In this document: one piece after another, positions 1 through 11,490 of the stretch
Numbering within the stretch: the stretch's first letter is position 1
Layout: each line of letters starts with the position of its first letter
Assembly: GCA_031254955.1 (NCBI GenBank)
Contig: JAIRTK010000508.1
Span: 1 to 11,490, forward strand
Reading direction: 5' to 3'
Origin: Opitutaceae bacterium
GTDB taxonomy: Bacteria > Verrucomicrobiota > Verrucomicrobiia > Opitutales > Opitutaceae
Length of the DNA: 11,490 bases
Notes under the pieces: generated by a model
What the model saw: the letters and a program-made list of their open reading frames with translations, nothing else
Told to the model about the DNA's origin: nothing
Databases searched by the model: none
Made by a program: the position numbers and the translations under genes

Positions 1-128
1 CGACAGAGGAGGAAAGAGGAGGACAGAGGAGGAAGGGAGAGGAGCGAAGGGGGGAAAAAAAGGAGAGAAGGGGGAGAGGAAAGAAGAAAGAAGAAAGAGA
101 AAGAGAACGAGAACGAGAACGATTAAGA
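1..128. repeat. Polypurine tract ending in GAGAAC hexamer repeat
   Basis: The plus strand is almost purely A and G for about 125 bases. It begins with three copies of AGAGGAGG at a 10-bp period (5-12, 15-22, 25-32), passes through G/A runs, and ends in tandem GAGAAC-type hexamers. The last 28 bases (101-128) are identical to 1501-1528 in the next long intergenic region, so this is a dispersed repeat rather than random composition bias. It lies downstream of the 3' end of the 318-1283 gene. Function is unknown; such strand asymmetry can adopt triplex (H-DNA) structure. No gene is credible here. Confidence 0.8.
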
Positions 129-302
129 GGATGAGGGGTGGCATCAGGCATGTTGTTTGGAGGATTTATTATCTTGGCGCCGGTTTCCACGGGCATGAAT
201 CGGCACTCGTATTTTCCTCATGACTGGGGACATGTAAATGCACCAACAATTACAATGACTGCCCGTCTTTGTAATCCTCCGGCCTTTCGCGAGAGCAACC
301 AG
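129..302. other. Intergenic stretch, no gene seen
   Basis: This segment has much lower GC than the surrounding genes and no convincing ORF on either strand. The only structure seen is a weak 8-bp inverted pair, GGAGGATT (159-166) with AATCCTCC (273-280), which could be chance. It separates the 3' end of the leftmost gene from the polypurine tract. Confidence 0.5.
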
Positions 303-323
303 CGTTGACGTCTTTCGTCAGCG
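303..323 (-). terminator. Possible stem-loop at the 3' end of the 321-aa gene
   Basis: TGACG (306-310) and CGTCA (316-320) are perfectly complementary around a 5-base loop. The stem extends to about 8 bp (303-310 with 316-323) with one wobble pair. It overlaps the TGA stop (318-320) of the minus-strand gene. No U tract follows on that strand, so it is not a textbook intrinsic terminator. It could instead protect the 3' end or be a repeat remnant. Confidence 0.3.
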
Positions 324-1283
324 TTGGCCGCCTTTCATCAGTTCCTCGGCGTATTGGGCGACGGCGTCCATCATGTCGGTCTGGATGGAGCCTTCGCTGA
401 TTTCACCGGCGAGTTCGGTGTATTTTTTCCAGAGTCTGGAGTCGGCGTTGCCGAAGATGGAGGCGCCGCCTTCCAGTTTCACGATGTCGCGAATCGCTTC
501 GGGCGAATAGCGGGACTGAAAGCGGCGCGCGAAGTTCTTGCCCGCCGGGCCGAGAGAGGCGACGAGGCCGGCGATGAGCTGGCGCATTCCTTCGAGCTGC
601 CGGGCGATTTGCGCGGCGGAAACCTCGGCGTCGCCGGTGACGGAGCGGCGGAGCGCGGAGCGGAGGTCGCCCGCGGAGTTGTCGCGGCGGATGGCGGACT
701 TGGGCGCGAGGCCTTTCCAGACGTTCCAGACAAGCTGGTCGGTCATGATGCAGACTTCGGCGAGCGCGGCGAAGAGTTTGCCGAGGCGCGCGGCGTCGAG
801 TTTGTCAGCGGGGGAGAGTTTCAGCTTTTGCGTGATTTCGGCGAGGGCGTCGGTGTCAAGCGAGTCGCTGGCGACGTGGACAAAGCCGGCGTCGGCGAGG
901 CGGCGGCGGATGGTTTCGCGTTGCTCAAGGGTGTAGCGGGGGAGGGTTTTGAGAAAGAGCGCCCAGATGTCATCGGGCGCCATCCCGTCCGGTCCGGCCT
1001 CGGCGGCGGGCGCGGCGGCGGCGAGCGATTCCCAGGTGGGGAATTTCTCGGCGAGGGTGTCGAGATAAAGCTGGCGTTTGCCGGCGGGAACGGGGTCGAG
1101 GAGTTTTTTAAGCTCGTCTTCCAAAAATGACTCGCGGTTTTCACGGGCGTCGTCGGCCAGATTGGCCTGAAGATAACGGAGTCGGCTGGCGGTGTTGGCA
1201 GCCCAGACAGGAGCGTCGGGCAGGCCGGCAGGGGTGGCGGGAGCGGCGGGAGTGGCGGCGGGTGCGTTTTTTGGGTCAGACAT
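318..1283 (-). CDS. Helical protein resembling the T6SS FHA-associated C-terminal domain (Fha/TagH-like)
   Basis: This is a soluble 321-residue protein with no signal peptide or membrane helix. After an Ala/Pro-rich N-terminus (1-25) come two similar helical segments: about 35-85 (acidic/Lys helix FLEDELKKLL, ending FPTW) and about 101-150 (DDIWALFLKTLP, then a charged helix). The part from about 165 to 315 resembles my recollection of the Fha C-terminal domain: a helix pair QIARQLEGMRQLIAGLVASL (225-244), then RRF..RYSPEAI (253-263), an aromatic DSRLWKKY helix (281-288) and a terminal amphipathic helix. No FHA domain is present, so at most this is the C-terminal module on its own. That assignment is inference from pattern, not from a search. 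It is the last gene of the co-directional series, 471 bp after the 1398-residue gene. The start at 1283 opens the longest frame; no Shine-Dalgarno sequence is visible upstream. An unrelated helical family is the alternative. Confidence 0.85.
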   Translation of the reverse strand: MSDPKNAPAATPAAPATPAGLPDAPVWAANTASRLRYLQANLADDARENRESFLEDELKKLLDPVPAGKRQLYLDTLAEKFPTWESLAAAAPAAEAGPDGMAPDDIWALFLKTLPRYTLEQRETIRRRLADAGFVHVASDSLDTDALAEITQKLKLSPADKLDAARLGKLFAALAEVCIMTDQLVWNVWKGLAPKSAIRRDNSAGDLRSALRRSVTGDAEVSAAQIARQLEGMRQLIAGLVASLGPAGKNFARRFQSRYSPEAIRDIVKLEGGASIFGNADSRLWKKYTELAGEISEGSIQTDMMDAVAQYAEELMKGGQR

Positions 1284-1310
1284 GGCGGGTGTGGGTTGTG
1301 GTGTGGCGGA

Positions 1311-1560
1311 TTTGTTCTAATCGGTTTCTTAATCGTTCTCGGTTTCGTTCTCTTACTCGTTCTCTTTCTCGTTCTCGTTCTCGTTCTCTTACTCGTTCTC
1401 GTTCTCTTTATCGTTCTCTTTCTCGTTCTCTCTTTTTTCATCAGGAACGGGTGGGGAAAAGAGAAAGAAAAAGAGAAAGAGAAAGAGAACGAGAACGAGT
1501 AAGAGAACGAGAACGAGAACGATTAAGAAACCGAGTAAGAGAACGAGAAAGAGAAAGAAT
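1311..1560. repeat. Long imperfect inverted repeat of GTTCTC/GAGAAC hexamers
   Basis: A polypyrimidine arm (about 1320-1438), built from CGTTCT/CTTTCT units, is followed after about 20 bases by a polypurine arm (about 1458-1560) of GAGAAC/GAGAAA units. The arms are partly exact inverse copies: CGGTTTCTTAATCGTTCTCG at 1322-1341 is the reverse complement of 1514-1533, and further blocks continue inward. Transcribed in either direction, the region could fold into a hairpin more than 100 bp long. The right arm shares 28 identical bases (1501-1528) with 101-128. Position between two co-directional genes suggests a transcript-end or repeat-element role, but no function is established. Confidence 0.85.
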
Positions 1561-1629
1561 AAAGAGCTGATGTCATGCGCTGCTTTTGTCGTGACGCGGA
1601 TTTTCAAGTCTGCTTCAGGGTGGGAAGGG

Positions 1630-1681
1630 CGGGCCTTCGGCCCGTCAGCAGGTTTGGAAACCTGCGCTACGTAAGCAGCGC
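1630..1681. repeat. REP-like pair of perfect hairpins
   Basis: CGGGCC-TTC-GGCCCG (1630-1644) is a perfect 6-bp stem with a 3-base loop. Immediately after it, GCAGGTTT-GG-AAACCTGC (1648-1665) is a perfect 8-bp stem with a 2-base loop. A third short pair, GCGCT (1664-1668) with AGCGC (1677-1681), follows. Tight arrays of short palindromes between genes are typical of REP/BIME-type dispersed elements, and this one lies downstream of the 1398-residue gene on its coding strand. It could also help end that transcript, but no U tract follows. Whether it recurs elsewhere in the genome cannot be seen from one window. Confidence 0.65.
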
Positions 1682-1721
1682 GTAACAGGGAAATGATGCT
1701 GGGTGTGGCGGTGATAGAATG

Positions 1722-1741
1722 AGAGAACGAGGACGGTTAAG
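1722..1741. repeat. Degenerate third copy of the GAGAAC...TTAAG repeat
   Basis: The 19 bases from 1723 to 1741 match the ends of the 101-127 and 1501-1527 copies at all but two positions (G for A twice). It sits only 13 bp from the stop codon of the 1398-residue gene. Its placement next to a gene 3' end matches the other copies. Confidence 0.5.
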
Positions 1742-1754
1742 TGAACGGGAAGGG

Positions 1755-4700
1755 TTATTTTTGTTGCCGGACGTAGGGTTGCGCGCGGAAGAGTTTTATA
1801 AGCGAGGCGCGGATGAGCATGGCTTTGGAGACATCGAAGGCCGGGCGCAGGCCGACATCGGCGTAGCCTTCGGCAAAGGCGTCGATGGGATAGGCGGTTT
1901 TCGGGTCCAGACCGGCGGGGGAAAGGGCGGAGCCGCCGGCCACGGAGTAGCGGTCGGACAGGGGATCGTGGAGGTAGGTGGCGACGTTGCCATACAGGTG
2001 CGCGAAATCGCCGCCGGTGTCGCCGGTGTCGGCAAACCAGAGCATGCGGTCGTCGGCGTCGGGGGCATAGGGTTGGGCGTTTTGGCGCGAGCCGCCGGCG
2101 TAATCAATGGGGACGAAGGCGCCGAAGTCGGGCCAGGGGTATTCAAAGTTGGCGCCGCGCTGGACGAGGTGGTCGCGCTGGGCGAGCCAGGCGGTGTCGG
2201 AGAAATTGGCGCCGGGGGCGGCGGGGGCGGCGCGTTCCGCGTAAAGGGTGGCGAGGGAGGCCCATTCCTCGGGCGTGGCGAGACGGGCGCCGAGGACGCG
2301 TTCGGCGAACGCGCGGGCGGCGGCGGGGGGAATGTTTTGCACGGGGTGGGCGGCGGAGGGCGCGGGCGGCATGTGGAGGCCGGGCGCGTAGAGGGGATCG
2401 GGCCAGCGCGGGTCGAGGTAGGCGGTCCAGCGGTTGTTGAGCGCCATCCGGCTGTCGTTGAGCCGGCGGGCGGTGGCGCGCCGGGGGGAGAGAATGCGCC
2501 AAGTTTGGGGGCCGGGCCGGGCGTCCACGTCCCGGCCTTCGGAGATGTCGGCGAGGTAGGCGGGCATGGCGGCGGTGACTTCGGCGCCTTCGGGGCGTTG
2601 CTCAACGAGGGCGATGAAGTCGCCGATTGAAATGGCGCGCGTGGAAAGGAAAAAGGGCGTGTCGGCCTCGGGTTCCACCAGAAGGTATTCTTGGACGCGC
2701 ACGGTTCCGGCGAGATCGGTCCAGCGGTAGGTCGCGCGTCTGTCGTCGTCGGCGAACTCGCCTTGCCAGCCGATGCGTCCGGGGCCGATGTCGGCGGGAG
2801 TGATCGTCTCGCCGGTGGGTTCGAGGTTGATGGCGACGGTCTCGTCGAGGAAACGGGCGATGCCGGAATCGGCGGCGGCTTCGGGGATGGCGCGGGCGAG
2901 CGCCACGAAGGCGTCGCGGCGCGACTTGGCCTCCTCCTCGGCGAGGCGGGTCCAGCGGAGGGTCTTGGCGTTGGCCAGAAGGTAATCGAAGCGGTCGAGT
3001 CCGGTGAGTTCGTCGGGGTTTATGCCCATTGGGGTCATGCGGAGGATGACTTCCGGGGTAAGGGCGGGAGTGATTTGCGCGTAGGCGCGGCGCCAGCGGT
3101 GCCGGGCTTGGGTGGCGATGGTTTCGATTTTCGCCTTTTGGGTTTCGGGCAAGCCCGCTGCGGCGAAGGTCGTCGCTGTTTCCACGCGCGTTTTGAGCGC
3201 GGACTCCAGGGCGATTTCGCGATCCAGTTCCTCAAGGCTGGCGGGCCAGTCGGGCAGCGTGTCGAGGCGGTTCCAGGCCGCGAGGGGGAGGCTGAGCGGC
3301 TGGTCGGAGGCGGCGGTGGCGGCAAGGGCGGCGCGGTCGGTCTCGGTTTGGAGGGTTTCGAGCCGGCGGGCGGCGGCGGCGAGTTCGGCGGGGCGTCCGG
3401 CGGAGGTCACGGCGGCGAACGCGGGGCCGGCGGCGGCGGCTTCCGTCATGATTTTCTGGATACTGGTGTCGGCCTCGGAGCCGAGGGCGACCGGTTCGTC
3501 CCAGGCGGCGCCCAGCCCGAGCAGCGTTTCGAGGCGGGCGAGGCCGGCGGCAAGTCCGGCGGCGGCGGAGCGCATGCCGGCGAGGGCGGCGAGCCGGGCC
3601 TGAACCTCGGGGAGCCGGGCGAAATCCGCGATGGAGACGGCGGGCGCGCCGTCGGGCGCCCATTGGACTTGGTCCAGAAAGGCCGCGAGGACGGTTTCTT
3701 TTTGCGCGAGGTCCACGGCGCCGGTTTGCGCGGCAATGGCTTCCGGGATGCCGGCGAGGTTCACGGGGTCGATGCCGCCGGCGAGCTGGGGGCCGTCGAG
3801 CGCGTCCAGCAATTCCCGCACGCGGCGGAGGCGGGCGCGCAGGGCGCGGAAGCCCGCCTCGTCGTCCGCGAGGGTTTGCTCGGTGACGCCGTCGAGAAGC
3901 CGGTCGCGGCGCCTCGCCCACTCGGCCTGAAGCACGGGCGGGCCGGCGAGGTTGTCGGCGCGGATGCGGGCCAGCCATTCGGCGGGGACGGGGCGCATGT
4001 CGTCGAGGGCGGCGGCGAGGCGGGCGACGAGGTCGTTGAAGCGGGTTTGGAGCGCGGCGGCTTCCTGGGCGGCGTTGTCGATGTCTTTGCGGATGACTTT
4101 GCGGGCGCGCAGGGTGTCGAGGGAGGCGGTGAGCGCGGCGGCCTCGGTGGCGAAGGGGGCGGAGATGGTGCCGCCGAGGCCGAGCTGGGTTTCCTCGCCG
4201 GTCAGACGGCGGAGGGCGTCGGCGAGGCGGGCGGCGGCGGCGGCCCAGTCGATGGCGAGGCGGGGGTCGGCGGCGGTGTCCACAAAGTAGTAGGGCTGGA
4301 TGCCGGTGTCCCAGCGGGCGAGGATTTCATCGGTAACGGCGCCGGAGAAATCATGGACAAAGCCTTCGCGGAGCCAGCGCGCATGATCGATGCGCACGGC
4401 CCAGTCGCCGCGGACAAAGGCGGCGCGGGCGGCGAGGAGCGGTTGTTGCGCGGCGAGGGTGCCGGGGATTTCGGCGAGGGGGACGGGGGCGGCGCGGAGG
4501 CGGATCATGCCGACGATGCCGGAGAGGACGGGGTCGCCGGTGGCGGCGAGGATGGAGGTGTCGCGGGCGACGATTTCCCAGGCGCTGTCGGCGGCGGCGG
4601 CGTTTTCGAGGAGGAGGAGGCGGGCGCTGATGTCGGCGGCCAGGCTTCCTGAATCGAGGGGGGGCGGGGGCGGGAGCCGGAGTTCGGCGGCGGCGTCCCA

Positions 4701-5951
4701 GTCGAGGGCCTGGAGGCGGGCGGCGGTGGTCGCGAGTTGTTTGCCGCCGGGCCAGTTTTCGAGCGAGGTGGCGAGGGTGGCGAGGGTGGCGCGGGCTTGT
4801 TTGATGGAGCGGACGACGAGGCCGCGCTTGGCCGATTCGGGGGGCGCGGACTGGAGCGCTTCAAAGTTGCGTCCGTCCTCGGTGAGGACGCGCGGGTCGA
4901 GACGCGCGCGGGTGTCGGCGATGGCGGTGACGTGTTCGCGCAGCCACGGGTCGGCGTTCCAGCGCGCGCGGGTTTCCGGGTCGTCAAGTTCGGCGCAGAG
5001 GGAGCCGAACCACGCGAACCACGCGGCGCAGAGTTCGCCGAACTCGGGCGGCACCTCCTCGGCGTCGGGGGGGACGTTGCCGAGTTTGATGGCAAGCTCC
5101 TGCACGGATTCGGGGAGTTTTTCAAAGGGCGTGAAGCGCAGCCACGCGAACGGGCTGGCGAGCACGAGGAGCGGCGCGGCGACCAGCGCGGCCTTGGCCG
5201 GGGTGGACAGGCCGCGCCCGCTCACGCGGGCGAAGCGGCGCCGAAGCGCGTCGAGCGTGAAGTCGCCGGGTTTGGCGTGCGGGTCGATGAGGTAGTTGCA
5301 AAAGTCAATCCACGCGCGGGCGTGGCCGCCGAGCACGCGCCACTTGGGGGAGTCCTCGATGGGCCAGCCGGCTTGGGCGCGTTTGCGGACGAGGGTGACG
5401 AGCAGGGTGCCGAGGGCGCGGAAGTCGGCGGCGCGCGCCTGTTCGCGGGTGACGCCGGCGAGCGGCGCCGGTTCGGCGAGCAGCACGGGGGACTGGCGGA
5501 GGGCGGCGGTGCCGGACACGAAGATATTGGACGGTTTCAACGCGCCGTGCGGGCGGCCCGCCGTCTGGTCAAGCGCCACGAGGCCTTCGATGATGCGGAG
5601 CGTGACGGCGTGGAGCGTCGGCGAGTCAACGGTGAGATGTCCGTCGATGATGCGCTGGAAGGAGCGGCGGTAGAGTTGCGTGACGACAAAGACGCCTTCG
5701 GGGCAGCGTCCGCTGGCGATGACGGGCGCCCAGCGGTCGGGCCGTCGCGCGCAAGCCGCGGCTTGCGCGGCGGCGGCGTCGAGGGCGGCGTTGAGGAGCG
5801 CGGCGCGGCGCGGGCCGCGCGGGCCGCCGGCGCGGAAGATTTTGAGCGCGCGCGGCGGCGCGGCGGCGCGGTCCGTCCCGGCGGTCGCCTCGTGGACGGA
5901 GGAGCGGAGGCCGACGTGGATGTCGCGTGTGGGTTCGTAGCCGCCGGGCAT
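1755..5951 (-). CDS. Pseudokinase-TM-SUMF1/FGE-like inner-membrane protein, possible T6SS regulator (PpkA-like)
   Basis: This is a 1398-residue protein. Residues 5-245 follow a Ser/Thr-kinase plan: a degenerate glycine loop, the beta-3 lysine in ALKIF (K37), and a catalytic loop HGALKPSNIF (135-144). The normal catalytic Asp is Ala there, while the following Lys and Asn are kept. No DFG is visible (LLAEPAP instead), and a helix like DxxxLG is present (DFRALGTLL, 176-184). It should therefore not phosphorylate. A single hydrophobic helix at about 250-272 implies a cytoplasmic kinase end and a periplasmic remainder. Residues about 275-1090 are Ala-rich and helical. Residues about 1095-1375 resemble SUMF1/FGE: HPVQNIPPAAARAFA (1202-1216), RLATPEEW (1223-1230), YGNVATYLHD, VAGGSAL and DVGLRPAF (1366-1373). 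That domain contains no cysteine, so it cannot use the FGE cysteine chemistry and is probably a binding fold. PpkA of T6SS has a related kinase-TM-periplasm layout. The start at 5951 lacks a Shine-Dalgarno sequence but sits just before the kinase fold. The function in secretion is inferred from the neighbours. Confidence 0.93.
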   Translation of the reverse strand: MPGGYEPTRDIHVGLRSSVHEATAGTDRAAAPPRALKIFRAGGPRGPRRAALLNAALDAAAAQAAACARRPDRWAPVIASGRCPEGVFVVTQLYRRSFQRIIDGHLTVDSPTLHAVTLRIIEGLVALDQTAGRPHGALKPSNIFVSGTAALRQSPVLLAEPAPLAGVTREQARAADFRALGTLLVTLVRKRAQAGWPIEDSPKWRVLGGHARAWIDFCNYLIDPHAKPGDFTLDALRRRFARVSGRGLSTPAKAALVAAPLLVLASPFAWLRFTPFEKLPESVQELAIKLGNVPPDAEEVPPEFGELCAAWFAWFGSLCAELDDPETRARWNADPWLREHVTAIADTRARLDPRVLTEDGRNFEALQSAPPESAKRGLVVRSIKQARATLATLATSLENWPGGKQLATTAARLQALDWDAAAELRLPPPPPLDSGSLAADISARLLLLENAAAADSAWEIVARDTSILAATGDPVLSGIVGMIRLRAAPVPLAEIPGTLAAQQPLLAARAAFVRGDWAVRIDHARWLREGFVHDFSGAVTDEILARWDTGIQPYYFVDTAADPRLAIDWAAAAARLADALRRLTGEETQLGLGGTISAPFATEAAALTASLDTLRARKVIRKDIDNAAQEAAALQTRFNDLVARLAAALDDMRPVPAEWLARIRADNLAGPPVLQAEWARRRDRLLDGVTEQTLADDEAGFRALRARLRRVRELLDALDGPQLAGGIDPVNLAGIPEAIAAQTGAVDLAQKETVLAAFLDQVQWAPDGAPAVSIADFARLPEVQARLAALAGMRSAAAGLAAGLARLETLLGLGAAWDEPVALGSEADTSIQKIMTEAAAAGPAFAAVTSAGRPAELAAAARRLETLQTETDRAALAATAASDQPLSLPLAAWNRLDTLPDWPASLEELDREIALESALKTRVETATTFAAAGLPETQKAKIETIATQARHRWRRAYAQITPALTPEVILRMTPMGINPDELTGLDRFDYLLANAKTLRWTRLAEEEAKSRRDAFVALARAIPEAAADSGIARFLDETVAINLEPTGETITPADIGPGRIGWQGEFADDDRRATYRWTDLAGTVRVQEYLLVEPEADTPFFLSTRAISIGDFIALVEQRPEGAEVTAAMPAYLADISEGRDVDARPGPQTWRILSPRRATARRLNDSRMALNNRWTAYLDPRWPDPLYAPGLHMPPAPSAAHPVQNIPPAAARAFAERVLGARLATPEEWASLATLYAERAAPAAPGANFSDTAWLAQRDHLVQRGANFEYPWPDFGAFVPIDYAGGSRQNAQPYAPDADDRMLWFADTGDTGGDFAHLYGNVATYLHDPLSDRYSVAGGSALSPAGLDPKTAYPIDAFAEGYADVGLRPAFDVSKAMLIRASLIKLFRAQPYVRQQK

Positions 5952-6008
5952 TGACGAGGGGGGGAGAGCGTGCGGGGCGCGCGGGACGGGCGGGCGCCGG
6001 CACGCCGT

Positions 6009-6557
6009 TTATTTCAAGTTGCGGGGGGTGAGGAGGCGCAGGCCGCTTTCTTTGACTTGGATTTCGATGGGGGCTTTGCCGGCTTTTTTCCATTGTTTCG
6101 CATCGAGCGGGAGGATGAGGCGGCGGGGATCGGCGTTGCCTTGCTGGTCGGAGGCGATGCCGGGGAGGTCGGCGATGACGACCACGTAGGTCGCCCCGGT
6201 CTGGAGCCAGCGGGTCCATTTCGCGTCGGTCGAGCCGATCTTTTGCGAGGCGGGTTTGCCGCGTCCGAAATCGACGGTGTAGCGGTCGGTGTCGCGGCGG
6301 GTGCTGTTGCCGGGCTGCCAGTATTCGGTGATCGAATACGATTCCCATTTCGGGAGGTCGGAGGTGGCGTTGGCGCCGATGATGTCCACTTGGAGCGAGG
6401 TGTTTTCCAGGGATTTGTCGAGGGTGAGCGCGATGGTGTGCGCGACGGGTTTGGGCGCGCTGGTGCACGCGGCGAGCGCAAGGGCGGCGGCCAGCAGGCT
6501 GAGGGCGGCGGCAAGGGCGCGGATGGGTTGTTGCGGGTTGCGGGTTTTGTTTTTCAT
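6009..6557 (-). CDS. Outer-membrane lipoprotein, TssJ-like candidate
   Basis: This is a 182-residue lipoprotein. A basic N-terminus (MKNKTR), an Ala/Leu hydrophobic stretch (about 13-30) and a lipobox LAAC place the acylated cysteine at residue 31. The mature part, about 150 residues, alternates short hydrophobic strands (HTIALTL, TSLQVDII, TYVVVIADL, RRLILPL, IEIQV) with turns, as expected of a small beta-sandwich. TssJ, the T6SS outer-membrane lipoprotein that docks the TssM/TssL complex, has the same size and layout. The sequence is not close enough for me to name it firmly, so TssJ is inference from size, lipobox and neighbours. The frame is open further upstream to 6827, but that would overlap the end of the 655-residue gene and bury the signal peptide, so ATG 6557 is the better start. 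Gaps to the flanking genes are 53 and 57 bp, consistent with one operon. A general periplasmic lipoprotein is the alternative. Confidence 0.9.
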   Translation of the reverse strand: MKNKTRNPQQPIRALAAALSLLAAALALAACTSAPKPVAHTIALTLDKSLENTSLQVDIIGANATSDLPKWESYSITEYWQPGNSTRRDTDRYTVDFGRGKPASQKIGSTDAKWTRWLQTGATYVVVIADLPGIASDQQGNADPRRLILPLDAKQWKKAGKAPIEIQVKESGLRLLTPRNLK

Positions 6558-6610
6558 GGCGAGGAAAAAAAAGCGCGGGCGGGGCGGTTTTTCGGGTTGG
6601 CGGGCGGGGG

Positions 6611-8578
6611 TCAGGCGAGGCGGTGGATGACGCGGGAGATTTCGCGGTTGGCGGTCCAGTCGGTGACGATGAGGGAGCGGGAGCGGACGAGGTGGTTGTC
6701 GAGTTCGTGGAGGGGGGCGTCGAAGATTTTTTCGAGGTTGAAGGGCGAGGCGTCGCCAAAGTCTTTGCAGAAGCTGTCGGGGCCGGCGCCGGGGAAGAAG
6801 CGCGCGAGCGTGGCGAGGATGCTCCACCAGAGGTCGGGGGGGAGCCAGCCGAAGGCTTCTTCCTGGGTGATGCCGTCGCAGGCGAGGCGGTGCGCGCCGA
6901 GGGCGGAGCGGATGCGCGGGTCGGCCCCGGCCACGCGGAGGGCGCGGGCGGCGAGGGGTTCGCCGGGCTGGGTTTCTTGGGCGAGTTTGCGGGCGAAGCC
7001 GAGCATGTCGTCGGCGGCGACGCCGAGGGTGTTGCCGGCGTTCACGGTGAGCAGGAGGGCGCCGAGGATGCCGAGCGAGTAGAGGTCGGCGGGGCTGCCG
7101 AGCAGGGGGATGGTTTCAAAGGGTGTGCCGGGAAACACCGCGCCTTCGGTGGCGCGGAGGGCTTCGTTCACGGCGGGGTCGAGGTCCTGCGGGATGGTGC
7201 GGAAGCGGGCTTCGCCGGAGGCAAGGCCTTCTTCGGTGTCGAGTCGTCCGAAGAGGTCTACGACGCGCGCGGCGAGCGGGAGGCGCAGCCAGAGGATGTC
7301 GCTGGCGGAGTGGCCGACGCGTTCGTGGGTGACGAGGGTGGCGTCGAGGCTGGCGCGTCCGCCGGTGTCGGTGAACACACGGCGCACGCGGACGGCGCCT
7401 TGTCCGCGAATGGGTTGGCCCATGAACGAGGGGCGGTAAACGGAGGCGGCGGGTTGCTCAAGCGCCATGAAGTAGCGTGTGTCGGCGGTTTTGATGGGCA
7501 GGGCGACGGCTTGGCCGGCGCGGGCGGGGACGAGATGCGCCGTCCAGAGCGCGGGGAGCGCGCCGGCGGGCGCGGCAAGGGAGACGCGGAAGGTGTCGGC
7601 GGAGAGGTTGAGCAGCGGGAGTTGGCGGCGGTGAATCGCGTCGCGCGTCAGTTGCACGGCTTGCCGGAAGAGGGAAAGTTTGAGGTGAAAGGTTTCGAGG
7701 AAGCGTCCGGCGCGGCCCGTGGCGGCGCCGAAGAGGAAGGCGCCGCCTTGCTGGAGGCTGTCCCAGTCGCCGAGCGGTTTCAGCGCGGTGTCGAGCAGGC
7801 AGGTGTCGCGTCCGGCGGGGTTGCCTTTCCAGGGGCGTCCGCCGAGGAAGGCCGCGTAATCGTCGAGTGAAAATGGCGCGAGGCGGCGGATGAATAGGAG
7901 GCCGCCTTCGGGGTTGAGGGGCGCGAGGCGGGCGCCGGGGGGGAAGGCGAAGGTTTCGATTTTGGCTTTTGTGTTTTCGAGTTCGGGGGCGGTTTCGAGC
8001 GAGGCGGGGTCGGGCGTGGCGAAGCGCGCGGCGGCGGCGGCGGAGTCGGCGCGCCAGAGGCGGAGGCTGGAGCTTGAGTAGGCGGGGAGGCCGGCGGCGA
8101 GCAGCGCGGCGTCGTCGGTGGCGGGCAGCCAGGCGCGGCCTTCGGGGTCGGCGGGGTGCCAGGGGGAGGCGGTGTCGAGGTTGATGAAGGCGGGGCGCGG
8201 GTGGGTTTGTTCGTGGCCGGTCTGGATGCAGGCGGCGGGGTCGGCGGCGAGGAATGAGGCGGTCATTTCGCGCCAGCGGGCGTCGAGGGCGGCGTTGTCG
8301 AGTCCGCCGCGACTCGTGTGAAACGCGCCGGCAAGGCCGGCGGTGGTTTGCACCCAGATTTCCACCCATTCGCGGATTTGTCCGGCGGCGTCGCAGACGG
8401 CGCCGAGGTAAACGCGGGCGTCCACCGCCGAGCGGAGCAGCACGAGCGGGCCGGCGGGCGAGGTTTCGTCGGGCGTGGGCGGCGCCGTGCGCGCGGCCAC
8501 GCAAATGCGGAGCGGCTGGCCGGCGGAGGCCGCGTCGATGGGGATCAGGGTGTGACGGTCGGGAAGCGTGGCGGGCAT
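6611..8578 (-). CDS. Unrecognised 655-aa protein with degenerate kinase-like features
   Basis: I do not recognise this soluble 655-residue protein as a named family; it has no signal peptide or membrane helix. Two segments recall a protein kinase. HRRQLPLLNLSADTFRVSL (316-334) resembles a catalytic loop and following strand, but without the catalytic His-Arg-Asp or Lys. GSPADLYSLGILGALLLTVN (494-513) closely matches the alpha-F helix motif DxYSLGxxxxxLLT of kinases. Between them lie about 150 residues with a beta-rich look (VRVRRVFTDTGGRASLDATLV), where an activation loop would be. If this is a kinase fold it is a very diverged pseudokinase with an inserted domain. The C-terminal 120 residues are helical (WWSILATLARFFPG, DAPLHELDNHLV). 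It lies 60 bp after the PAAR gene and 53 bp before the lipoprotein gene, so it probably belongs to the same secretion unit. It may be a regulator or adaptor. The start at 8578 has no Shine-Dalgarno sequence. Confidence 0.9.
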   Translation of the reverse strand: MPATLPDRHTLIPIDAASAGQPLRICVAARTAPPTPDETSPAGPLVLLRSAVDARVYLGAVCDAAGQIREWVEIWVQTTAGLAGAFHTSRGGLDNAALDARWREMTASFLAADPAACIQTGHEQTHPRPAFINLDTASPWHPADPEGRAWLPATDDAALLAAGLPAYSSSSLRLWRADSAAAAARFATPDPASLETAPELENTKAKIETFAFPPGARLAPLNPEGGLLFIRRLAPFSLDDYAAFLGGRPWKGNPAGRDTCLLDTALKPLGDWDSLQQGGAFLFGAATGRAGRFLETFHLKLSLFRQAVQLTRDAIHRRQLPLLNLSADTFRVSLAAPAGALPALWTAHLVPARAGQAVALPIKTADTRYFMALEQPAASVYRPSFMGQPIRGQGAVRVRRVFTDTGGRASLDATLVTHERVGHSASDILWLRLPLAARVVDLFGRLDTEEGLASGEARFRTIPQDLDPAVNEALRATEGAVFPGTPFETIPLLGSPADLYSLGILGALLLTVNAGNTLGVAADDMLGFARKLAQETQPGEPLAARALRVAGADPRIRSALGAHRLACDGITQEEAFGWLPPDLWWSILATLARFFPGAGPDSFCKDFGDASPFNLEKIFDAPLHELDNHLVRSRSLIVTDWTANREISRVIHRLA

Positions 8579-8638
8579 GGGTGTGGGCGGGAGCGGGAGC
8601 TTCGGTTTGCGGGTTGCGAGGGGTTGTCCGGCGCCGGG

Positions 8639-8938
8639 TCAGCCGCCGATGTTCACGGTGGGGAAGCCGAGCGCGATGGTGCCGCCATGCGCGGTGGTGT
8701 CCCCCATGCGGGCGGCGGGTTTTTTGCCAATCATCACCGTGGCGGAGCCTTTGAGGATGGTCGAGGGCGGGCCGACGCAGACGCAGGAGTCGCCCACCAC
8801 GGCGGCGGGCATTTTTCCGATGAGGACGGTCGGCGCCCCCGGTCCGATGATCGGGCCGCCGACATGCGGCACGGGCGGTATTCCGGGAGTGATCATCGGG
8901 CAGACGTGGAGGTCGGTGATGCGGGCGGCGGGTGGCAT
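8639..8938 (-). CDS. PAAR-domain spike-tip protein
   Basis: This 99-residue protein is essentially one complete PAAR domain. It starts MPPAARITDLHVC (Pro-Ala-Ala-Arg at 3-6) and carries repeated VLIGKMPAAVVGD (38-50) and VMIGKKPAARMGD (68-80) hairpins, with TAHGG (82-86) and a closing TVNIGG. His and Cys residues (H11, C13, C53, H84) are available for the metal site at the tip. PAAR proteins form the sharp cone on the VgrG spike of T6SS and on related contractile injection machines, and can recruit effectors. There is no C-terminal toxin extension, so this is a structural tip; cargo would be a separate protein. The frame extends upstream with a low-complexity, implausible leader, so ATG 8938, directly before the PAAR motif, is chosen. 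The next gene begins 60 bp downstream. Confidence 0.95.
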   Translation of the reverse strand: MPPAARITDLHVCPMITPGIPPVPHVGGPIIGPGAPTVLIGKMPAAVVGDSCVCVGPPSTILKGSATVMIGKKPAARMGDTTAHGGTIALGFPTVNIGG

Positions 8939-9001
8939 GAGGGGGAAAAAAGTCCGAGGGTTAAAAAACAGGATGCGCGGCGTGCGGATGGAGGGCGGGG
9001 C

Positions 9002-9059
9002 TTTTTTTTTTGGGGGGGGCGGGTGTGTTGTTTGTCGCGTGTGTTGTTTGTCGCGTGTG
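9002..9059. repeat. T10/G8 homopolymer runs plus 16-bp tandem repeat
   Basis: Ten T (9002-9011) are directly followed by eight G (9012-9019). Two exact tandem copies of GTGTGTTGTTTGTCGC (9023-9038, 9039-9054) and the start of a third follow. All of this lies in the 131-bp gap between the 388-residue gene and the PAAR gene, 64 to about 120 bp upstream of the PAAR start on its coding strand. Such runs are prone to slippage. No promoter can be identified with confidence. Confidence 0.75.
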
Positions 9060-9069
9060 TGATGCGTTT

Positions 9070-10236
9070 TCAGGCAGCGAGCGGGCAGGAGGGGCATTTT
9101 TTCGCTCCTTTTTTGGCGGCTCCGACGGCTTCGCCCACGGTCATGAGCGAGGTCATGGGGCCGACATTGGGGAGCGGCGGGAGGTCTTGGAGCGGGGCGA
9201 AGTCGATGCGTCCGATGTCGAAGTTTTTCATGAGTCTGAGGGCGGGAAAGAATTGCGAGGCTTGTGTCCAGGACTGGGCGTTGGCGGCTTGCCGGGGAGT
9301 GAGGGTTTCGGTGAGGGATTCGGTGATTTCCGCGACACGCTGGAGCGGGGTGTGGATTTTCGCAACGAAATCGCCTGGATTGAGCCGGGCAAGGTCGATT
9401 TTGAAGAACCGGGCGACATTGTCGTAGGTTTGCGCGATGCCGAGGATGTTGAGCACGGCGGGGAGCACGGGCGGCGGAATCGGAGGGGGCGGCGGGAGTT
9501 TGACGATGGCGTTGAGTTTGTTGGCGAGGTGGCCCAAGGCCTTGGGTTCGCGGATGTCGATGCCGAGGGTTTCGGTGAGTCGCACGAGGGTGGCGAGGGG
9601 AGCGAGCGGGGCCATTTGCCCGGCAGGAAAGGGCGGGATGGCGGCGACGGTCTTGACGGCCATTTGTATCTTGACCAGGGCCTTGGGGTCAACGGGGAGG
9701 AGCTTGATGTCCAGGGCGGCCTTCATCATGCGCATCTGCGTGACGATGGCGGACATCCGCTGGATGGGTTTCGGCGGCGGGGGGGGCGGGGCGGCGGACA
9801 GGGAAGGCAGCGGTATTTTGACCAGGCCGGCGAGCGAGCCGTTTATCTTTGCCGCCAGTTTCGGGTCGTCGATTTTCATCTTCATCATGCCCTCCATGAC
9901 GCGGACGAAGGGCGGGAGGGATTCCATCTGCCCGATTTTCACGTGGTCGAGCGGAAGCCGCATGACAGGCTCGGGGATGCGCATTTTGGCAAACACGTCG
10001 AGTCGCGCGCGGATGAAATTGTTGGCGGGGTTGGCGGGCGCGGCGACGATGACGGGGGCGAGTGGCTCCAGTTTGGGAATGGGCACTTCGGGAATGGGGA
10101 TGGGCACGCGCGGGATGAGTTGCTTGAGCTGCTCGACGAGCTTGAGCGGACAAACGCACGGGATGCCGGCCGGGGTGAGAAGTCCGGCCAGGGAGGAAAG
10201 CCCGGTGGCGTTGGCGAATCCCGAAAAAAGGCCCAT
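9070..10236 (-). CDS. Unrecognised 388-aa proline-rich repeat protein with terminal Cys pairs
   Basis: I do not recognise this family. After a Gly-rich hydrophobic start (MGLFSGFANATG) comes PCVCP (26-30), then a Pro/Ile strip (VPIPIPEVPIPK, 44-55). The middle is built of about four diverged units of roughly 45-50 residues (about 104-145, 158-204, 208-251, 258-304). Each has helices around an (I/L)DxxxP(K)AL-like centre and ends in prolines (KIPLP, AIPPFP, KLPPPPP). The only four cysteines are C27, C29, C381 and C384 (CxC near the N-terminus, CPSC at the C-terminus), a plausible metal site that would bring the ends together. There is no conventional signal peptide. The gene directly precedes the PAAR gene, so it could be a spike-associated adaptor, PAAR partner or secreted cargo; this rests on position only. 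The start at 10236 is supported by AAGGAG 5 bases upstream. Length is typical of no family I can name. Confidence 0.9.
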   Translation of the reverse strand: MGLFSGFANATGLSSLAGLLTPAGIPCVCPLKLVEQLKQLIPRVPIPIPEVPIPKLEPLAPVIVAAPANPANNFIRARLDVFAKMRIPEPVMRLPLDHVKIGQMESLPPFVRVMEGMMKMKIDDPKLAAKINGSLAGLVKIPLPSLSAAPPPPPPKPIQRMSAIVTQMRMMKAALDIKLLPVDPKALVKIQMAVKTVAAIPPFPAGQMAPLAPLATLVRLTETLGIDIREPKALGHLANKLNAIVKLPPPPPIPPPVLPAVLNILGIAQTYDNVARFFKIDLARLNPGDFVAKIHTPLQRVAEITESLTETLTPRQAANAQSWTQASQFFPALRLMKNFDIGRIDFAPLQDLPPLPNVGPMTSLMTVGEAVGAAKKGAKKCPSCPLAA

Positions 10237-10241
10237 GTGCG

Positions 10242-10247
10242 CTCCTT
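10242..10247 (-). promoter_or_regulatory. Shine-Dalgarno site of the 388-aa gene
   Basis: AAGGAG on the minus strand lies 5 bases upstream of ATG 10236. It is the only clear ribosome binding site among the seven genes and fixes that start. It falls in the 30-bp gap after the channel gene, so the 388-residue gene may be translated from a shared transcript. Confidence 0.75.
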
Positions 10248-10266
10248 GTTGTCGCTGGCGCGGGGG

Positions 10267-11133
10267 CTAGGCGGTGGCCGGCCCCGGCCCGGCCTTTTTG
10301 TCCCGCTGCGCTTTTATGTCATCCATGATGATTTGATAATTGTTCACCACCGCGCCGACCAGGAGGTTGAGCAGCAGGAAGGCGGCGAGCGAAAACCATA
10401 TCACGTGGAATGTGGTGATCACCGCGTGGGACGGCGCGATCAATTCATATTTGCGCGCCTGCAACAAGCTGTAGCGCACCGCGGTCCAGTCGTCGCCGGT
10501 CATGACGCGAAACAGCGTGAACATGGACTCGGTGAGCGAGCCGTAGGGGTCCGTGCAGGTGAAGCCGTTGGGGTCAACCTGGGCGAACTCCTTGTAGATG
10601 GCCTGCTTTTCCGGCGGCAGGGTGCCGGCCTCCGGGAGCTTGAACAGGATGTGGCCGATGTTTGCGAACAAATACATGAATACAAAAAAGAATAATCCGT
10701 TATATAAAAGCGACCTCATGGATTTTATAAGAACGGCGGCGATCAGCTTCACCTCGCCGGAGATGCGAAGCAGGCGCAGGATGCGGATGACGCGCAGGAC
10801 GCGGAAGATGACAAACTGCTGGCTGCCTGCAAACAGCACCTCGGGAGTATAGCCCAGGAACACCAGCACGAGGTCGAAAAGATTCCAGCCGTCGGCGAAA
10901 AACGCCCGGCTGTTTTTCGCGGCGAGGAAACGCAGGGCCAGCTCGGCGGTGAAAAGCCATAATATGACCCGTTGCACGGATTCGATCGCCGAATCGTCGG
11001 CCGTATAGGAGGCCACGCCGACGAGGGCGGCATTCAGCAGGATGATGACGGTTATGACCAGGTTAAACGCCCTGTTGTCCACAAGGCGCTGGCAGCGGGA
11101 TTTCAGTATTTCCATGTCGGGATTTGTTGGCAT
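10267..11133 (-). CDS. Voltage-gated cation channel with calcium-type selectivity filter
   Basis: This 288-residue single-domain channel of the Ion_trans/NaChBac family works as a tetramer in the inner membrane. S1 is about 22-42; S2 about 52-71 carries the counter-charge E64; S3 about 82-94 has WNLFDLVLV (N84, D87). S4 has five arginines at every third position (R111, 114, 117, 120, 123), so voltage sensing should be intact. S5 is about 141-165 and S6 about 236-266 with a conserved Asn (N256). The pore has a long turret (166-200) and the filter MTGDDWTAV (211-219). Sodium-selective bacterial relatives have TLESW. Two acidic residues here, and the resemblance to TGEDW in repeat II of eukaryotic Cav channels, predict calcium permeation; this is inference. 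The cytoplasmic tail is short (about 20 residues), without the long coiled coil of NaChBac. A second in-frame ATG at 11115 (MEILKSRC) is possible; neither start has a good Shine-Dalgarno sequence. The region coding for S5 is noticeably AT-richer than the neighbouring genes. Confidence 0.94.
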   Translation of the reverse strand: MPTNPDMEILKSRCQRLVDNRAFNLVITVIILLNAALVGVASYTADDSAIESVQRVILWLFTAELALRFLAAKNSRAFFADGWNLFDLVLVFLGYTPEVLFAGSQQFVIFRVLRVIRILRLLRISGEVKLIAAVLIKSMRSLLYNGLFFFVFMYLFANIGHILFKLPEAGTLPPEKQAIYKEFAQVDPNGFTCTDPYGSLTESMFTLFRVMTGDDWTAVRYSLLQARKYELIAPSHAVITTFHVIWFSLAAFLLLNLLVGAVVNNYQIIMDDIKAQRDKKAGPGPATA

Positions 11134-11176
11134 CTATCAAAAAGAAAAATCGGGGCGGTCGGTTGTGACACAGGAC

Positions 11177-11292
11177 CCGGAGGACACAGGGCGCGCCCCA
11201 CGGAGGGCGCGGAGATATTGCGTGAACAGGTTTTTTCTCTCCGTGCTCTTTGTGTTTTCCGTGTCGGGGCTTTGTGTCCTCGGTGTCCTCGG
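11177..11292. repeat. Composite inverted repeat upstream of the channel gene
   Basis: GAGGACACA (11180-11188) is the reverse complement of 11273-11281, and inside it CACGGAG (11199-11205) pairs with CTCCGTG (11239-11245). The right side also holds two tandem copies of TGTCCTCGG (11275-11292). The sequence type (CGGAGGACACAG / CTCCGTG...TTTCCGTG) recalls intergenic repeat families, often mis-annotated as proteins rich in Thr-Glu-Asp-Thr. Nothing here looks like a gene; it occupies the upstream region of the channel gene. Confidence 0.65.
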
Positions 11293-11364
11293 TATCAAAA
11301 CAGACTTCATTGGCTTTTTTGCGTCTTTGCGCGGGTTGTTTTGTCAGGCATTCTAAAAAGCAAC

Positions 11365-11484
11365 CGCGAAGGGCGCGAAGGGTGCGAAGATATGAAAAAA
11401 CAGCCTCATGGGGTTTTCTTGATTCATGGAATGGCATTCGATGGATGCTTTTGTTCGCATCCTGACGGCTTCGCGCCCTTCGCG
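11365..11484. repeat. GCGAAGGGCGCGAAG inverted repeat
   Basis: CGCGAAGGGCGCGAAG (11365-11380) is exactly the reverse complement of 11469-11484. The pairing resumes as GGTGCGAA (11381-11388) against TTCGCATCC (11454-11462), after a few unpaired bases. The 65-bp spacer is AT-richer and has no gene. The end-to-end symmetry suggests a dispersed repeat element or a long transcript hairpin. The repeat may continue beyond the window edge at 11490. Confidence 0.65.
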
Positions 11485-11490
11485 TTCTTC

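Follow-up and report, generated by a model that had tools for sequence, protein, structure and literature searches.

The stretch of DNA analysed here, called the window in the following, comprises 11,490 nucleotides from an Opitutaceae bacterium (GenBank assembly GCA_031254955.1, contig JAIRTK010000508.1, positions 1 to 11,490). It carries the gene of a long protein with a kinase-like head and an end resembling the formylglycine-generating enzyme (FGE), in a gene neighbourhood of the type VI secretion system (T6SS). The gene and its parts are the following:

1755..5951, minus strand: entire gene, 1398 amino acids, encoding a pseudokinase head, a membrane helix, a helical region and an FGE-like fold
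5214..5951, minus strand: pseudokinase head, residues 1-246
5526..5549, minus strand: catalytic loop HGALKPSN, residues 135-142, with Ala in place of Asp
5133..5204, minus strand: single membrane helix, about residues 250-273, placed by hydropathy
2772..5126, minus strand: helical region, about residues 276-1060, from AlphaFold secondary structure, probably periplasmic
1830..2765, minus strand: SUMF1/FGE-fold domain without cysteine, about residues 1063-1374

Profile comparison, structure model and structure search all revealed a bilobal kinase fold in the head. A first-pass annotation, made from the letters alone, had read the catalytic loop as HGALKPSN with an exchange of Asp for Ala. This reading was correct, and the exchange is not peculiar to the window: the HRD Asp was present in all 23 canonical kinases used as references (23 of 27 loci tried) and in none of the 28 heads examined, which are 24 family rows and P0016-P0019. 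Homologues with an intact Asp and DFG were looked for, and the idea of a lone mutant was rejected since all 28 heads lack the HRD Asp, the position being occupied by A (10), N (12), K (4) or R (2). The absence of DFG, also claimed, applies to the window's protein, which has E at the position of the Asp, but is not uniform in the family, where 16 heads have D there, 11 have E and one has T; in the joint alignment the canonical DFG column sits in the wrong place, and the states given for the heads match the family alignment. The distance from the catalytic Asn to the Asp of helix alphaF was 34 residues in the window's protein and 30-35 in 26/28 heads, against 53-85 in 16/23 canonical kinases, the spacing pattern having not caught L041, P0016 and seven of the 23 references. 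As it was short in every head that could be measured, the activation segment is missing from them by this spacing. L039 and P0006 were identical over the aligned part, so that at least one protein is represented twice in the 24-row as well as in the 28-row set.

SelO is one of several proteins, named pseudokinases, that transfer groups by means of an unusual active site, and the head might likewise still be an enzyme that transfers phosphate, AMP or another group. The VAIK Lys (26/28 heads), the catalytic Asn (27/28) and an acidic residue at the DFG position (27/28) would suit such an activity. We nevertheless consider it improbable, given A, N, K or R at the HRD position, with K or R in six of the 28 heads, and the lack of an activation segment in 26 of 26 heads measured.

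In a tree calculated with the 23 canonical kinases and four T6SS kinases, the 28 heads formed one branch (support 99/93), from which both sets of kinases stood apart; the tree came with a long-branch warning, and none of the four T6SS kinases is a characterised PpkA, the threonine kinase of T6SS regulation. The branch next to the heads held two verrucomicrobial proteins (L020, L021) with an HGN-loop pseudokinase followed by repeats that look, by eye, like the Sel1 type. HGNLKPGN loops were seen on a separate branch (L024, L027, L030, L032).

Loss of catalytic residues could also mark a PpkA-like kinase in decay, of which the protein would be a relic. Its reading frame, however, is uninterrupted over 1398 amino acids, and the ratio of nonsynonymous to synonymous substitution rates (dN/dS) in four pairs of relatives ranged from 0.14 to 0.26 in the head, from 0.19 to 0.34 in the helical region and from 0.17 to 0.32 in the FGE-like end. 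All three regions are thus under purifying selection in these pairs, so that the head is maintained, and the same losses are also seen in P0018, a protein named as Phycisphaerales. Decay was therefore rejected, and we give it next to no weight.

At the other end of the protein, profile comparison and structure search found an FGE/C-type-lectin fold. The two catalytic cysteines of FGE are absent, their motif position reading AGGSALSP, and the last 345 residues are devoid of cysteine in 20/24 family rows, among them the window's protein; in the remaining four, the cysteines fall outside the catalytic motif. The SUMF1/FGE-like C-terminus without cysteine described in the first-pass annotation is thus real, but not distinctive: by motif, the pair was also missing from six of nine FGE-family references from related genomes, taken from L055-L083 by an open match over 190 residues plus a GN[VAM][WAF] motif. 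Loss of the cysteine pair is therefore the common half of the finding.

Both ends were said to have kept their folds and lost their chemistry, and this describes them well, as judged from the sequence of the two catalytic sites and from structure model and structure search for the folds. Family scans with Pfam and NCBIfam gave no kinase and no FGE match for the window's protein alone, and 2/13 family members showed an FGE-sulfatase match at E up to 1. The single membrane helix proposed to join the ends held up as well: by hydropathy, a single clear hydrophobic stretch separates head from outer part in 32/32 rows, with a second window elsewhere, barely above threshold, in 6/32. The AlphaFold model has low confidence over residues 247-265. 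Profile comparison related the helical region to neither TssM, kinase nor FGE profiles; in the structure searches, where this region was not queried by itself, the end domains filled the matches.

The family was present in 19/252 Opitutaceae genomes and 7/49 genera, 5/19 genomes having fragments only (G001, G433, G523, G525, G606; left out of the 24 family rows, to which G004's own copy was not added next to P0004). Named relatives of the window are Termitidicoccus and Ereboglobus. Among 387 genomes sampled across the phylum, five had the full-length form, all of them Opitutaceae, and the other 18 matches were kinase parts. A tblastn search of plasmids with the protein yielded no match.

The gene is surrounded by the following features:

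6009..6557, minus strand: small lipoprotein with lipobox LAAC (by eye), occupying the place of TssJ immediately upstream of the pseudokinase gene
6611..8578, minus strand: 655-residue protein, one motif of which may be a degenerate kinase C-lobe (hhalign 54.5% across 32 columns)
8639..8938, minus strand: PAAR protein (PF05488, 83 bits on the longer open reading frame 8639-9097)
318..1283, minus strand: 321-residue protein, found between the pseudokinase gene and tssK in relatives
9070..10236, minus strand: 388-residue uncharacterised protein, found between the TssB-TssC fusion gene and the PAAR gene in G002

The context of a contractile secretion machine, suspected earlier, was confirmed by the PAAR gene, the one clear T6SS gene on the contig besides the pseudokinase gene, and by T6SS genes around the latter in relatives. 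In G004 the order is TssB-TssC fusion, a protein of the 388-residue family, ion channel, a strand-ambiguous spot, 655-residue protein, lipoprotein, pseudokinase gene, 321-residue protein, TssK, TssL, TssM and a TagF-like gene; the sheath fusion, TssK, TssL and TssM were identified by profile. At the ambiguous spot, between ion channel and 655-residue gene, the program that picks open reading frames took the opposite strand, and PAAR was not checked there. G002 showed a matching order that includes PAAR, from its list of open reading frames, with the sheath fusion identified by profile. Across the family-carrying genomes, the search for T6SS core genes was confined to the TagF-like gene. It was found as a separate gene in 17/19 of them, on another contig in G000, and 15 copies of it matched 11 annotated TagF proteins with 75.9% (E 2.3e-5), while three controls reached at most 0.7%. 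PF09867 had no match in 288 Verrucomicrobiota genomes, a result uninformative about absence as the controls were silent too, and tblastn of the TagF-like protein against plasmids had none either.

The lipoprotein fits TssJ by lipobox and position, with 2.5% in the TssJ comparison and no profile support. The 655-residue protein carries a kinase-like DLYSLG motif and may be a second degenerate kinase (L125 gave no usable row in its hhalign comparison); it occurred in 9/18 genomes, missing from the eight of genus g39 and from G606, and lay upstream of the pseudokinase gene in all eight relatives that have it. For the 321-residue protein, the G004 copy gave a weak T6SS_FHA_C match of 15.5 bits, below the cut-off; despite this Pfam hint, a relationship to Fha was discarded at an hhalign value of 0.3% against four Fha proteins. 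Tandem repeats with units of 6, 12, 18 and 24 bases lie between its gene and the pseudokinase gene (window 1333-1566), a pyrimidine-rich stretch first and a purine-rich one next. An ion-transport channel protein is encoded at window 10267-11133 (PF00520, 128 bits), and G004 has a similar open reading frame in the corresponding place. The fusion of TssB and TssC (VipA and VipB) yields a sheath protein of 652-677 amino acids (L009:7814-9847, L011:12919-14877). Right after the TagF-like gene of G004 follow three uncharacterised genes of lower third-position GC content (L012:13398-17368), possibly cargo; two of them were scanned and gave no family match above cut-off.

Four relatives, P0014, P0015, P0020 and P0021, have a TagF-like head where the window's protein has the pseudokinase; a membrane helix again comes next, then an outer part whose end is FGE-like. 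Over 330 residues, the head of P0014 shared 32% identity with the TagF-like protein that G004 encodes separately. The outer part of P0014 aligned with the window's protein over the FGE-like end and also, at two places, with the first part of the helical region. This first part seems to be duplicated in P0014 (residues 349-597 and 829-1131). A query with the outer part of P0014 retrieved seven further proteins, the named ones being P0015 (Planctomycetota) and P0018. TagF_N did not match any of the four TagF-headed proteins; separate TagF-like genes matched it below the cut-off. Alternative heads on one membrane frame thus exist, as far as comparison of these proteins can tell.

Post-translational control of T6SS runs largely through phosphorylation by PpkA and repression by TagF. 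PpkA of Pseudomonas, Serratia, Agrobacterium and Acidovorax resembles the window's protein in its kinase-fold head, single membrane segment, outer part and T6SS gene context. The present protein differs by the missing catalytic Asp and activation segment, by an outer part that is far longer and ends in an FGE fold, by the absence of an FHA domain at its locus and, for the family, by heads whose branch is distinct from the four T6SS kinases in the tree. An active PpkA, phosphorylating Fha or TssL, would not be expected with these residues missing and an FHA-less locus. TagR of Pseudomonas aeruginosa also brings an FGE-type domain into a T6SS regulatory module: a table entry in PMC7253367 gives it an FGE-sulfatase domain, and it acts upstream of PpkA (PMC10482370). 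TagR is a separate protein, whereas here the FGE-type domain is fused to a kinase-like head, and the two are likened by description and not by sequence. The TagF-PppA fusion of Agrobacterium, like the TagF-headed relatives, holds a TagF-like module within a larger protein; in the relatives it is joined to a membrane helix and an FGE-fold end instead of a phosphatase, and in the window the head is kinase-like. In mycobacterial cell wall synthesis, a complex (MviN-FhaA) reportedly uses a pseudokinase for binding at a membrane machine, in dependence on FHA binding, whereas no FHA domain was found at the present locus. T6SS regulation is already known to employ kinase, TagF and FGE modules; joined as here, without the catalytic part and with alternative heads on one frame, they were not described among the top literature matches listed or in passages of PMC10482370, PMC3953482, PMC6082577, PMC12607579 and PMC7253367.

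Two studies help to interpret this anatomy. In Serratia, TagF blocks assembly of the membrane complex, and PpkA becomes dispensable upon deletion of tagF while Fha remains essential (PMC6082577). Kinase-dead PpkA of Acidovorax still binds TssW and forms foci (PMC12607579). Together with the TagR reports and the anatomy of the protein, they lead us to favour a PpkA-plus-TagR-like protein that would pass an envelope cue by binding. The earlier proposal of a trans-envelope scaffold or sensor in place of an active PpkA remains the best reading, as we infer it. In its present form, drawn from sequence and structure models, the protein would be a trans-envelope T6SS regulator, PpkA-like with a fused TagR-type FGE-fold sensor, working by binding instead of phosphorylation, and we put its probability at roughly 0.55. 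The end outside the inner membrane may sense the envelope or the TssJ/TssM membrane complex; the change would reach the cytoplasmic head, which would hold or release a cytoplasmic partner, presumably in that direction. Among possible partners, TssL, TssK and the product of the TagF-like gene that directly follows tssM would be the likeliest.

The protein could alternatively have a structural place in the envelope complex of the T6SS, bracing TssJLM as a strut or ring subunit and taking no part in signalling, for which the FGE-fold PorK/PorN ring of type IX secretion offers a parallel. Like PvdO, EgtB, FGE and the variable proteins of diversity-generating retroelements, PorK/PorN differ from the window's protein, which has no cysteine pair. 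It is not evident why a pure strut should require, in the cytoplasm, a kinase fold that is conserved or a head resembling TagF, and we regard this role as doubtful, though worth more consideration than an enzyme.

Several observations weigh against the regulator reading. Nucleotide binding may persist in the head, as the VAIK Lys and the catalytic Asn are kept. Kinases of PF00069 occur elsewhere in the family-carrying genomes, with four matches in G000, so that another kinase could act on the T6SS. In G004, one of them is located some 13 kb upstream of the sheath gene; it looks unrelated, since its HRDIGPKN loop is shared by kinases of G003, G005 and G006, all without the family. A T6SS without FHA at its locus needs explaining, because Fha is needed in Serratia even without TagF. 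FHA domains were absent from seven of the 12 family-carrying genomes searched (of 19), two of the seven being incomplete (G000, 69%; G016, 81%); in the other five they lay on other contigs, draft contigs giving no distances, or about 400 kb off in G152, and none at the locus. The TagF identity of the alternative heads is moderate, and the link runs through the separate TagF-like gene: compared with 11 annotated TagF proteins, the four TagF-headed proteins alone reached 5.1% and all TagF-like rows together 29.4%, and the best TagF score with three references was 19.5%. In the tree of the FGE-like end, TagF-headed and kinase-headed rows were mixed and four changes were needed, yet a single clade of TagF heads was not rejected (p 0.11). 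Polyphyly of these heads was therefore not retained, and repeated head swapping is only suggested by the tree.

The TagF-like heads of the relatives point to a frame able to accept either of two modules, inhibitors or adaptors. More tentatively, and with a lower probability than the regulator reading itself, we propose for Verrucomicrobiota and Planctomycetota a T6SS switch free of phosphorylation, in which helix, helical arm and FGE-fold sensor would carry interchangeable pseudokinase or TagF-like heads. Direct binding would couple the state of the envelope to assembly of the membrane complex and replace the PpkA-PppA-Fha-TagQRST relay.

The family can serve as a marker for T6SS loci in phyla for which literature searches found little on T6SS. 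With its disabled kinase, FHA-less locus, and TagF-like and kinase-like modules on one frame, it would show two known branches of T6SS control merging, and the role of PpkA apart from phosphorylation would become directly testable with such a family.

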